Part shown: one piece after another, positions 12,150 through 15,888 of the stretch
How positions within the stretch are numbered: the stretch's first letter is position 1
How the letters are laid out: every line of letters starts with the position of its first letter
NCBI GenBank assembly: GCA_903855945.1
Contig: CAIOAK010000131.1
Location: 1 to 42,513 of the forward strand
Direction of reading: 5' to 3'
DNA: 42,513 nt
Origin: an uncultured Anaeromyxobacter sp.
Lineage (GTDB): Bacteria; Myxococcota; Myxococcia; Myxococcales; Anaeromyxobacteraceae
The notes under the pieces: generated by a model
Databases searched by the model: none
What the model saw: only the letters and a program-made list of their open reading frames with translations
Told to the model about the DNA's origin: nothing
Program-made: the position numbers and the translations under genes

Positions 12150-12155
12150 TATCCT
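12150..12155 (+). promoter_or_regulatory. -10 box (TATCCT) placing the start of the TGA-containing gene
   Basis: TATCCT is followed by exactly 6 bases and then GTG at 12162, the same spacing as at 4540, 8077 and 28814. This independently places the start of the gene upstream of the two in-frame TGA codons. Confidence 0.55.
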
Positions 12156-12161
12156 CGCCGG

Positions 12162-12761
12162 GTGTCCCCCCTCGTCCTCCACGCCACCGGGTTCGGCTGA
12201 GGCCCGGTGACGGGCCTCGGTTGAGGCACCGTTCTCGCGCCCGTGCTGGCGCGCCTGGATTCCCTCCCCGGCGTGAGGACCGCCCGGACCGACTCGTCGG
12301 GCCGGTTCTTCTGGTTGTCGCTCGGTCCCGGCGCCGACCCGTCGCTGGTCGCGACGGCGGCCGGCACGGTGCTCGGTTCCGGCGCCCGGCCCCTCCCGGA
12401 ACCCGAGGCCGAGGCCCAGCTCCGCGCCCGCGGCACCGGGGACCCCTGGTTCGACGCGGGTGAGGTGATGTCCCTCTCCTTCATCGAGTCGCGCCTGCTC
12501 TCGGTCCGGTTCGCCGGGGAGGCGTCACGCCGGTTCCGTCTCCTCCCCGAGCAGCGCGAGCGGGTCGCCGAGGCGCTGCGCACCGAGCTCTTCGCGGCCA
12601 TGGAGCGGGTGCACCGGGAGGGGGGCCGCGAGAGCAGCGGCTGGATCTACGAGGAGTGGCCGGCCCTCGCGGCCGCCGCCGCAGCCCGCTGCGCCCCCCA
12701 CCTTCCACCGGAGGTCGTGCCCGAGCTGGGGGCGCTCCTTCCCACGCTGCTCGCCCGCTGA
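12162..12761 (+). CDS. Candidate selenoprotein with two in-frame TGA codons (residues 13 and 21)
   Basis: Read with TGA as an amino acid, 12162-12761 is one frame of exactly 200 codons (199 residues). It begins VSPLVLHATGFG, then U13, GPVTGLG, U21, GTVLAPVLARL and continues to a normal TGA stop. Third-position G/C bias holds before, between and after the TGAs. The GTG start has a -10 box 6 bases upstream, so initiation at a later GTG (12243) is less likely. The two TGAs sit in a repeated context (GFG-U-G, GLG-U-G) near the N-terminus, as expected for a redox pair separated by seven residues. A 15-pair hairpin spans both TGAs, and a 6-pair hairpin begins 11 bases after the second. The rest is Arg/Glu/Leu-rich, with WIYEEWPALAAAAAARC near the end; I recognise no family. 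Alternatives: a pseudogene with two nonsense mutations, or a shorter protein from an internal start. TGA-as-Trp is unlikely because TGA ends many genes here. Confidence 0.55.
12192..12225 (+). promoter_or_regulatory. Hairpin spanning both TGA codons (SECIS-like candidate)
   Basis: The core is GAGGCCCG (12199-12206), loop GTGA, CGGGCCTC (12211-12218): eight perfect pairs capped by a GNRA tetraloop. Seven more pairs, including G-U wobbles, extend it outward to 12192 and 12225. The first TGA (12198-12200) lies in the 5' arm and the second (12222-12224) in the 3' arm. Bacterial SECIS hairpins sit at or just after the recoded codon, so position fits. The classical loop/bulge signature of E. coli fdhF is not matched. 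Confidence 0.4.
12236..12253 (+). promoter_or_regulatory. Second hairpin, 11 bases after the second TGA
   Basis: CGCGCC (12236-12241), loop CGTGCT, GGCGCG (12248-12253): six pairs. The 11-base distance from the TGA to the stem equals that between TGA and the upper SECIS stem in E. coli fdhF. In such GC-rich DNA short stems are common, so the evidence is modest. Confidence 0.35.
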
Positions 12762-12776
12762 CGAAAGGGACCCCGC

Positions 12777-13562
12777 ATGCCCCGATTCGCCGCCAACCTG
12801 ACCATGATGTTCAACGAGGTCCCCTTCCTCGAACGGTTCGCGCTCGCCGCCCGGGCCGGGTTCGAGGCGGTGGAGTACCTCTTCCCCTACCCGTTCGAGC
12901 GGGACCAGCTGGCGGAGAGGCTCCGGGAGAACGGCCTCTCCCAGGCGCTCCACAACCTGCCGGCCGGCGACTGGGCGGCCGGCGAGCGGGGCATCGCCTG
13001 CCTTCCCTCCCGCGTCGGCGAGTTCCAGGACGGCGTCGAGACCGCCATCGCCTACGCGAAGGCGCTCGGCTGCGGCCAGCTCAACTGCCTCGCCGGCGTC
13101 CTGCCCCCGGGCGCGGACCGGGAGATGGCGGAGCGCACCCTGGTGGAGAACCTCCGCTTCGCGGCACGGGCGCTCGCGCCCCGCGGCCTGCGCCTCCTCG
13201 TCGAGGCCATCAACACGCGGGACATCCCCGGATTCCTCGTCTGCCGCACCGAGCAGGCGCTGCGGTTCCTGGACCTCGCCGGGGAACCCAATATTCACTT
13301 ACAGTACGATATCTACCACATGCAGGTCATGGAGGGAGACCTCGTGCCGACGATGCGCCGCAACCTTGGGCGCATCGGCCACGTCCAGGTCGCCGACACC
13401 CCGGGGCGCAACGAGCCCGGCACCGGCGAGATCCACTACCCCTTCGTCTTCGCGCAGCTCGACACCATGGGGTACACCGGGTGGGTGGGCTGCGAATACA
13501 AGCCGCGCGGGGATACGGAGGCCGGCCTGGGCTGGTTCGCGCCGTACCGGACGCGACGGTGA
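12777..13562 (+). CDS. hyi: Hydroxypyruvate isomerase
   Basis: A 261-residue TIM-barrel enzyme of the xylose-isomerase-like superfamily, the usual length for Hyi, which interconverts hydroxypyruvate and tartronate semialdehyde. The N-terminus MPRFAANLTMMFNEVPFLER matches the family opening. Other hallmarks are GFEAVEYLFPYPF, HNLPAGDWAAGERGIACLP, the glutamate in LLVEAINTRDIPGF and the second catalytic glutamate in GWVGCEYKP. The metal/substrate His is in QYDIYHMQVMEGDL. The start ATG is preceded by AAAGGGA. The next gene, a tartronate semialdehyde reductase, starts 16 bases after the stop. Together they convert hydroxypyruvate or glyoxylate-derived tartronate semialdehyde to glycerate. Glyoxylate carboligase is not in the window. 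Confidence 0.95.
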   Translation: MPRFAANLTMMFNEVPFLERFALAARAGFEAVEYLFPYPFERDQLAERLRENGLSQALHNLPAGDWAAGERGIACLPSRVGEFQDGVETAIAYAKALGCGQLNCLAGVLPPGADREMAERTLVENLRFAARALAPRGLRLLVEAINTRDIPGFLVCRTEQALRFLDLAGEPNIHLQYDIYHMQVMEGDLVPTMRRNLGRIGHVQVADTPGRNEPGTGEIHYPFVFAQLDTMGYTGWVGCEYKPRGDTEAGLGWFAPYRTRR

Positions 13563-13578
13563 GAACGGGAGGAACATC

Positions 13579-14475
13579 ATGAACGTCGGATTCATCGGGC
13601 TGGGCATCATGGGGCGCCCCATGGCGGGCCACCTGGGCGCGGCGGGGCACGCGCTCTTCCTCCACACCCTCGGCGGGATCCCGCCCGAACTCCTCGAACG
13701 GGGCAGCGTGGCCTGCTCGAACGGCCGGGAGGTGACCGAACGGTCCGACGTGGTCATCACCATGCTTCCCGACACGCCCGACGTGGAGGCGGTCCTCTTC
13801 GGCCCGGGTGGCGTCGCCGAGGGGCTCTCCCCCGGCAAGCTCGTCGTGGACATGAGCTCCATCTCCCCCATCGAGACCAAGCGCTTCGCCGCGCGCGTGA
13901 ACGCGCTCGGCTGCGACTACCTCGACGCGCCCGTCTCCGGCGGCGAGGTGGGGGCCAAGGCCGCCTCCCTCACCATCATGGTCGGCGGCTCCCCGGCGGC
14001 CTTCGACCGGGCCAGGCCGCTCTTCGAGAAGATGGGGAAGAACATCACCCTCGTCGGGGGGAACGGCGACGGGCAGACCACCAAGGTGGCGAACCAGATC
14101 ATCGTGGCGCTCACCATCGAGGCGGTGGGCGAGGCCCTCCTCTTCGCGTCGCGGGCCGGCGCCGACCCGGCCCGCGTCCGCCAGGCCCTGCTCGGAGGCT
14201 TCGCCTCCTCCCGCGTGCTGGAGGTACACGGCGAGCGGATGATCCAGCGGAACTTCGCGCCCGGCTTCCGCATCGCGCTCCACCAGAAGGACCTGGCGCT
14301 CGCCCTCTCCGGGGCGAGGGCGCTGGGGGTCTCGCTCCCGAACACCGCGACCTGCCAGGAGCTCTTCAACTCCTGTGCCGCTCACGGCGGCGCGGGATGG
14401 GACCACTCGGCCATGGTGAAGGCGCTGGAGACCCTGGCCGGGGCCGAGATCGGCGGACCGGGCCAGGGTTCGTAG
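13579..14475 (+). CDS. glxR: 2-hydroxy-3-oxopropionate (tartronate semialdehyde) reductase
   Basis: A 298-residue beta-hydroxyacid dehydrogenase. The Rossmann dinucleotide motif is GFIGLGIMGRPMAGHL at 4-19. The substrate-binding signature is DAPVSGGEVGAKAASLTIMV, with the catalytic Lys in GQTTKVANQI and the C-terminal HQKDLALAL motif. This subfamily reduces tartronate semialdehyde to D-glycerate with NAD(P)H. Length and motifs fit GlxR/GarR rather than 3-hydroxyisobutyrate dehydrogenase, and the upstream hyi gene supports this; paralogues with other substrates cannot be excluded. The start ATG follows GGGAGGAACATC. The gene converges on a sugar transporter gene with 18 bases between stops. 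Confidence 0.93.
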   Translation: MNVGFIGLGIMGRPMAGHLGAAGHALFLHTLGGIPPELLERGSVACSNGREVTERSDVVITMLPDTPDVEAVLFGPGGVAEGLSPGKLVVDMSSISPIETKRFAARVNALGCDYLDAPVSGGEVGAKAASLTIMVGGSPAAFDRARPLFEKMGKNITLVGGNGDGQTTKVANQIIVALTIEAVGEALLFASRAGADPARVRQALLGGFASSRVLEVHGERMIQRNFAPGFRIALHQKDLALALSGARALGVSLPNTATCQELFNSCAAHGGAGWDHSAMVKALETLAGAEIGGPGQGS

Positions 14476-14493
14476 CCGTCCAACCGGCGGGCG

Positions 14494-15888
14494 CTATCCG
14501 CCCTGCCCGAGCCTCCGCAGCGGCTTGCCGGCCTTCAGGTCGGCCTCGATCCGTTCCAGCGAGATCCCCTTCGTCTCCGGCACGAACCCGGCCACGAACA
14601 CGATCGCCAGCAGGCAGAACGCGGAGAAGACGAAGAAGATGGACGAGTTCCCGTGCTCCTGCATGAAGGTGAGGGAGTTGTCCATGAGGAGCCCGGCGAA
14701 GGTCCAGTTCACCATGGTGGTGACGGTCATCCCCACCTCGCGCCCCTGGATCGGGAAGACCTCGGAGCACACGATCCAGGCCACCGGCCCCCAGGAGACC
14801 GCGAAGCCGAAGATGTAGACGATCACGGCGACGAGCAGGACCGGACCGGACCAGGCCGGGCCCGTGGCGCCCGCCACGTCTCCGATGGCGCGGAAGGCGA
14901 GGCCGGCGGCGACCATGGCGACGAACATGGACGCGGCGCCGACGTAGAGGAGCTTCTTCCGGCCCCACTTCTCGACGAGCCGGATGGCGGGGAACGTGAA
15001 GATCATGTTCACCGTGGGGACGGTCATCATCGCCACGAGCCCGGTGAGCCCCGCGAAGCCGAAGATCCGGGGCGCGTAGTAGATCATCACGTTGATCCCC
15101 ACGAGCTGCTGGAACATCTGCAGCAGGATCCCGACCGCCAGGACCTTCAGGAAGTAGCCCTGGAAGACGATGCGGGTGGAGGTACCCCCCGTCCCCAGGG
15201 ACTTCTCGATGTCCGCGATCTCGGCCGCGACCTCCTCCTCCGTCGCGAGGATCCGCCGCAGGACCACGGTGGCCTCCTCCTTGCGCCCCCCGAGCATGAG
15301 CCAGCGCGGGCTCTCCGGGAGGAAGAGGCTCCCGAGGAGCATCAGGGCGGCGAAGAGCACGATCACCCCGAACATCAGAGGGAGCGCCCGCTCGGGCTTG
15401 ACCACGGCCCGGATGATGAAGACGTTCGAGACGGAGATGACGAAGATGCCGATGGTGATCATCAGCTGGAAGAGCGTCCCCATCGACCCGCGGACCTTCG
15501 TGGGCGCGGTCTCCGACAGGTAGAGCGGGACGACGAACGAGGCGATGCCGACGGCGAAACCGAGCGCCAGCCGGCAGGCCAGCATGACCGCCATGGGGAG
15601 GAGGAACGCGGACAGGAGGGATCCCACGGTGAAGATGAGTCCCGCGAGGACCAGGCTCCTCTTCCGCCCGAGAAACCTGGCGAGCAGCCCGGAGAGGAGC
15701 GCGCCCGCGACGCCGCCCGTCGCCAGGATCGAGGAGTAGTGCTCCGCGCCCCGGGTGTCGAGCCGGTAGACCGTCTGGATGGTCGAGAGCGAGTTGGCGA
15801 TGAAGCCCTGATCGAGCCCGAAGAGCAGGCCGCCGAGCGCTGCGGTGCCGCTGATCAGGAGGACGATCGACCGGTATCCGCCGTTCAT
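14494..15888 (-). CDS. MFS sugar transporter (sugar porter family)
   Basis: A 464-residue sugar:proton symporter-like protein with twelve predicted helices. Family signatures include GLLFGLDQGFIANSL in helix 1, the loop ARFLGRKRSLVLAG, PLYLSETAPTKVRGSMGTLF, the central PESPRWLMLGG, the substrate-binding QQLVGINVMIYYAPRIFGFAG in helix 7, and the C-terminal FVPETKGISLE. These are the classic XylE/GalP/GLUT motifs. The start ATG (15888) follows GGAGGCAAC and overlaps the stop of the upstream hexokinase gene by four bases (ATGA), so the two are cotranscribed. The pair would import a hexose and phosphorylate it on entry; glucose is the likeliest substrate by inference. A weak GGCGG/CCGCC hairpin covers its 3' end. 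Confidence 0.94.
   Translation of the reverse strand: MNGGYRSIVLLISGTAALGGLLFGLDQGFIANSLSTIQTVYRLDTRGAEHYSSILATGGVAGALLSGLLARFLGRKRSLVLAGLIFTVGSLLSAFLLPMAVMLACRLALGFAVGIASFVVPLYLSETAPTKVRGSMGTLFQLMITIGIFVISVSNVFIIRAVVKPERALPLMFGVIVLFAALMLLGSLFLPESPRWLMLGGRKEEATVVLRRILATEEEVAAEIADIEKSLGTGGTSTRIVFQGYFLKVLAVGILLQMFQQLVGINVMIYYAPRIFGFAGLTGLVAMMTVPTVNMIFTFPAIRLVEKWGRKKLLYVGAASMFVAMVAAGLAFRAIGDVAGATGPAWSGPVLLVAVIVYIFGFAVSWGPVAWIVCSEVFPIQGREVGMTVTTMVNWTFAGLLMDNSLTFMQEHGNSSIFFVFSAFCLLAIVFVAGFVPETKGISLERIEADLKAGKPLRRLGQGG

Follow-up and report, generated by a model that had tools for sequence, protein, structure and literature searches.

A probable two-selenocysteine protein family of Myxococcota, with a predicted HMA-like domain and a conserved hairpin after each UGA codon

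The SECIS of E. coli fdhF is a hairpin that lies 11 nt after its UGA codon and has a GU-containing loop. Published rules for bacterial SECIS elements call for a loop of 3–9 nt with a G in its first two bases, a stem of 4–16 bp, a distance to the loop of 16–37 nt and an energy no higher than −7.5 (PMC13188914). Selenocysteine (Sec) has been found in proteins named for mercuric transport: Global Ocean Sampling data yielded a selenoprotein MerP and a ‘putative mercuric transport protein’, with two marine sequences each (PMC2398784). SaoB, SaoC and UXX-star are bacterial Sec proteins that have been proposed to bind metals (PMC13188914). In A. dehalogenans, Zhang et al. listed 11 selenoproteins, including FdhA, SelD, a peroxiredoxin, a proline reductase, a thioredoxin and a DsbA-like protein; the two-Sec protein described here was not among them (PMC1794560).

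Here we analysed a 42,513-nt stretch of DNA from an uncultured Anaeromyxobacter sp. (the window), the source genome of which is a 4.07-Mb draft that is 99% complete. An earlier note had proposed that a GTG-initiated frame with two internal TGA codons encodes a selenoprotein, to be refuted by a genome without selABCD, by homologues that all start after residue 21, or by Trp, other sense codons or further stops at the two positions. We found this frame again at 12162–12758, with internal TGA codons only at residues 13 and 21, in the contexts GFG-U-G and GLG-U-G, respectively, and a terminal stop at 12759–12761. Standard gene calling yields only a 172-amino-acid open reading frame (GTG 12243–12761). 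The features that we assign are as follows.

12150..12155, + strand: −10-like box TATCCT of a putative leaderless promoter (TAnnnT, 13 of 18 homologous loci)
12162..12758, + strand: probable two-selenocysteine protein, 199 amino acids, GTG start (18 distinct homologues keeping both TGAs; coding substitution pattern)
12162..12401, + strand: predicted N-terminal HMA-like domain, residues 1–80, carrying U13 and U21 (AlphaFold2, Foldseek, VIA)
12198..12200, + strand: UGA, probably read as Sec13 (TGA in 18 of 18 homologues)
12212..12230, + strand: SECIS-like hairpin 1, assigned to Sec13, GGGCCUC-GGUU-GAGGC[A]CC (97.5% of cells paired, 17 sequences)
12222..12224, + strand: UGA, probably read as Sec21 (TGA in 18 of 18; HMMER alignments to the HMA domains of CopA and MerA)
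12236..12253, + strand: SECIS-like hairpin 2, assigned to Sec21, CGCGCC-CGUGCU-GGCGCG (intact in 18 of 18)
12402..12758, + strand: predicted C-terminal helical domain, residues 81–199 (AlphaFold2 pLDDT 90.7 when modelled alone)

Searches of 99 relatives, of 195 genomes of the phylum and of 384 genomes in 273 genera returned 18 distinct full homologues (window included) from 16 Myxococcota genomes; a homologue in G002 that is broken by a contig end was left out. Fifteen of these genomes belong to the window’s own family and one, G109, to another family of the phylum, and identity to the window protein ranges from 39% to 66%. Residues 13 and 21 are encoded by TGA in all 18 sequences, with no Cys, Trp, other sense codon or further stop at either position, and the homologues begin at start codons of their own that precede both TGAs, and their N-termini are conserved; neither of the refutations that concerned homologues was met. 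The invariant core of the family reads U-G-P-V-x-G-L-x-U-G-x-x-x-A-P-V-x-A-R-L. Judged by these alignments, the retention of both TGAs goes beyond chance. Two in-frame stops within one gene might suggest a pseudogene or a sequencing error; however, exactly these two stops, with no others, recur in 18 distinct sequences, several of which come from single-contig genomes, and this already refutes that explanation, to which we attach practically no weight. The single-contig assemblies G005, G006, G011, G019 and G022 suggest isolates.

Cys homologues at positions 13 and 21 had been expected, and this expectation failed. No Cys form was found among the 384 related genomes, and both positions are exclusively Sec across the genomes searched. 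A pattern scan of 84,980 species, the sole test beyond the sampled relatives and made with a narrow pattern, returned only close relatives and again no Cys form, and no homologue was found in the plasmids and viral contigs searched. Weak matches at G018 (L056) and G131 (L061) were set aside as probably due to chance, as they lie in other open frames, and L018 in G036 encodes an HMA protein with GMTC that is at most a distant relative. In the homologue from outside the window’s family (L060; G109:C143:103082-103657), the DNA of the UGA–hairpin region is nearly identical. Two contigs of G021 (C117 and C19) carry an identical gene and upstream region, probably an assembly duplication. Two genomes encode two different copies each of the two-Sec gene. 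In the tree, L016, L017, L020 and L021 cluster with moderate support (90/91), and each two-copy genome has one copy within and one outside this group; from this placement, both Secs appear to have survived a gene duplication.

Substitutions in nine close pairs bear on whether the UGAs are read through. Before UGA1, they number 8, 7 and 17 at codon positions 1, 2 and 3, as in coding DNA; between the two UGAs, the counts are 0, 0 and 22, and at codons +9 to +19 they are 1, 0 and 15. The change confined to third positions between the UGAs implies that this stretch is translated, that is, that translation continues past UGA1. Around UGA1, conservation extends over amino acids −9 to +19, and the overall pattern is the signature, at the level of sequence, of a peptide that is translated and under strong constraint to either side of each UGA. 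The TGAs could instead be true stops, with the protein starting beyond residue 21 (GTG 12243, where standard gene calling places the start, is one candidate) and the upstream part forming a short leader peptide. That account is hard to reconcile with the amino acid conservation and third-position-only change just described; it would also cost a confidently predicted HMA-like domain (see below) its strand 1 and the greater part of helix 1, and the conserved promoter precedes GTG 12162. We consider it very improbable and favour translation from GTG 12162 through both codons.

The TATCCT box reported exactly six bases 5′ of this GTG is indeed present, and similar boxes are common in the family: a TAnnnT box that ends 6–9 nt 5′ of the start codon occurs at 13 of the 18 homologous loci, compared with 0.02 expected, whereas only one Shine–Dalgarno-like motif was found. 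Together, these observations argue for initiation at the upstream GTG on a leaderless mRNA. Standard gene finding probably mis-calls genes of this family, with their two TGAs, wherever it is applied.

Each UGA is followed by a hairpin. The stem of hairpin 1 begins 11 nt, and its GGUU loop 18 nt, after UGA1 (−9.9 kcal/mol); for hairpin 2, the stem begins 11 nt and the CGUGCU loop 17 nt after UGA2 (−10.3 kcal/mol). Both satisfy the published SECIS rules in the window and in nearly all members of the family. These generic rules are weak, however: about 15% of the window’s TGAs pass them, so the hairpins alone are little proof. The third bases after UGA1 are frozen at codons +4 and +6, under hairpin 1, and at +12 to +17, under hairpin 2, and vary at +1, +2, +3, +7, +11, +18 and +19, which matches the limits of the hairpins; at codon +4, the free wobble base is G in 18 of 18 despite variation in the amino acid, as hairpin 1 predicts. 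The probability that these synonymous sites are frozen by chance is about 10^-18.5, a rough figure that assumes nine independent representatives and is too small because of their relatedness; the within-gene contrast between frozen and free sites stands. We found no compensatory covariation in either hairpin because the pairs hardly vary, and dropped it as a line of proof.

Hairpin 2 is the six-pair hairpin that the earlier note had placed 11 nt after the second TGA, and it is intact in all 18 sequences. The same note had also described a 15-pair hairpin with a GTGA loop that spans both TGAs. This structure (12192–12225) exists in the window and contributes to the minimum-energy fold of 12195–12270. 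It lacks conservation, however: 88% of cells are paired, the closing pair is broken in 9 of 17 sequences and pairs to the left of the first UGA are broken in 3–4 of 17. It relies on freely varying bases and competes with hairpin 1 in the window. On grounds of conservation, we rejected it as a SECIS and assigned to U13 the conserved hairpin at 12212–12230, the loop and 3′ arm of which contain the second UGA. Pairing in hairpin 1 is complete in 16 of 18 sequences, and the hairpin 1 of L021, as drawn, falls slightly short of the energy limit. Both UGAs are kept in the two exceptions, L017 (from G010), which lacks outer pairs, and L016 (from G005), which has lost most of the stem (GGGGCUCGCCUGAGGGACC, about −3 kcal/mol); these loci could serve as a useful natural experiment on the need for hairpin 1. 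The invariance of hairpin 2 and the disruption of hairpin 1 in L016 would fit a single SECIS that serves both UGAs, with the other conserved stem being secondary. However, 41 nt separate UGA1 from the loop of hairpin 2, which is beyond the 16–37-nt range, and the constant G at codon +4 is accounted for by hairpin 1. We regard a single SECIS as unlikely and prefer one hairpin per UGA, an assignment that remains inferred.

The genome of the window encodes selA, selB, selD and tRNA-Sec (78.5 bits); the full set of genes (selA, selB, selC and selD) that the earlier note had asked for is present, and the refutation by their absence was not met. The selD gene itself carries an in-frame TGA, about 26 nt after which lies a SECIS-like hairpin with a GUC loop, GGCGCAG-GUC-CUGCGCC (L036 1530–1600). 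Searches of the G109 draft assembly found tRNA-Sec but no selA and no complete selB; selB-like fragments of 30 residues occur on two contigs. The selenoprotein reading is supported overall, with none of its stated refutations met, and we are highly confident that Sec is inserted at both codons, although insertion itself is inferred, without protein or 75Se evidence.

An AlphaFold2 model built with Cys in place of Sec (pLDDT 91.6) has a β-α-β-β-α N-terminal domain (strand 4–7, helix 20–33, strands 38–44 and 49–54, helix 60–71), followed by five helices. Residues 1–80 are predicted to fold like the HMA domains of MerP and CopZ: the top Foldseek matches are HMA domains (probability 1.00, E 0.03; TM 0.78 to ATP7B), and the VIA Z scores of 6–7 are middling but consistent. 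Profile matches (HMMER) are weak, with U21 aligning to the first Cys of GMTCxxC in the HMA domains of CopA and MerA at E 0.01–0.05. The NCBIfam mercury(II) reductase model matches three members (best E 0.0007); no member reaches the gathering cut-off of PF00403, with one at E 0.21. Only the first position of the MxCxxC metal site is Sec, the second being V, A, L or E, and U13 lies in the same loop, eight residues before U21. The C-terminal domain, in which W96, E109, R111 and W166–P167 are conserved, has no PDB match better than E 1.2 and no clear relative. The earlier note did not recognise the family. An HMA-like N-terminal domain and a helical C-terminal domain can now be assigned from structure prediction, but the absence of a described family stands: no Pfam or NCBIfam model above cut-off covers the protein, nothing in NCBIfam 20.0 hits the window protein even when E values up to 1 are allowed, and we found no paper describing the family in the literature searched, in which subscription journals were poorly covered.

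The neighbourhood gives little guidance to function. In the window, an amidohydrolase gene lies upstream and hyi-like and glxR-like genes downstream; the stretch 12777–15888, with hydroxypyruvate isomerase-like and tartronate semialdehyde reductase-like genes and then a convergent sugar transporter, looks like an ordinary glyoxylate or sugar locus and shows no obvious connection to the selenoprotein. The suggested link to hyi–glxR found no support, as the neighbourhood is not conserved. Neighbours elsewhere include a biopterin hydroxylase with an ABC ATPase, an alcohol dehydrogenase, HlyIII and TMEM164 family proteins, sigma-54 activators and a protein kinase, and we set gene neighbourhood aside as a functional clue. 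Given that the neighbours are not common to the family, we infer that the two-Sec gene is probably transcribed alone.

We propose that the mRNA begins at or near GTG 12162 and that SelB and Sec-tRNA-Sec would decode UGA 12198 with the aid of hairpin 1 and UGA 12222 with the aid of hairpin 2. Hairpin 1 would have to open before U21 is decoded, because UGA2 lies in its loop and 3′ arm. The 199-amino-acid product would present an HMA/MerP-like metal loop with two selenols (U13 and U21), fused to the helical domain, and is most likely to bind or hand on a soft metal, for example Hg(II) or Cu(I), or to carry out a diselenol/diselenide redox step. We have high confidence in this explanation as a whole: a two-Sec selenoprotein, a leaderless mRNA, one hairpin per UGA and an HMA-like domain with a soft-metal or redox role. 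Metal binding by the diselenol is our best single guess at that role, about as apt to be wrong as right; it is inferred. The two Secs could instead form a redox pair (a diselenide or selenol catalysis) that binds no metal, with the HMA-like fold serving only as a scaffold. Redox enzymes make up most bacterial selenoproteins (PMC1794560, PMC13188914), the family lacks the second of the HMA metal-site Cys residues and the neighbours examined included no recognisable metal-resistance genes; on the other hand, the predicted fold is that of HMA, and there is no recognisable redox partner or thioredoxin-like motif. A redox pair remains a serious possibility, although we retain metal binding as the working view. 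More speculatively, this may be a Sec-only HMA-type family that handles soft metals via its selenol pair, in which the melting of hairpin 1 to expose the second UGA couples the two insertions, such that the gene could work as a metal chaperone gated by selenium; we offer this only tentatively.

The family would add to the bacterial selenoproteins one with two invariant Secs and no known Cys form, which methods that search for Cys/Sec pairs cannot, by design, detect. The gene is also a compact natural setting in which to ask how two UGAs separated by 24 nt are decoded when their SECIS hairpins overlap and the mRNA is apparently leaderless, and whether Sec can act as a metal ligand within an HMA-like fold. 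We class the family as new but of a familiar type, with an uncommon decoding arrangement; it is absent from the family libraries and papers searched. Like HMA proteins (MerP, CopZ and NmerA; PF00403), it has a predicted β-α-β-β-α domain, with U21 at the position of the first Cys of GMTCxxC; unlike them, it lacks CxxC, has two Secs instead (the first eight residues upstream), adds a C-terminal helical domain and scores below the Pfam cut-off. It shares Sec in proteins named for mercuric transport with the Global Ocean Sampling sequences, for which two Secs and a helical domain are not mentioned and no sequence comparison was made (PMC2398784). The proposed metal binding recalls SaoB, SaoC and UXX-star, although the window protein matches no NCBIfam 20.0 model. 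As in the SECIS of E. coli fdhF, the 11-nt spacing and a GU-containing loop are present; in contrast to fdhF, the two-Sec gene has two hairpins 24 nt apart, the first of which contains the second UGA.
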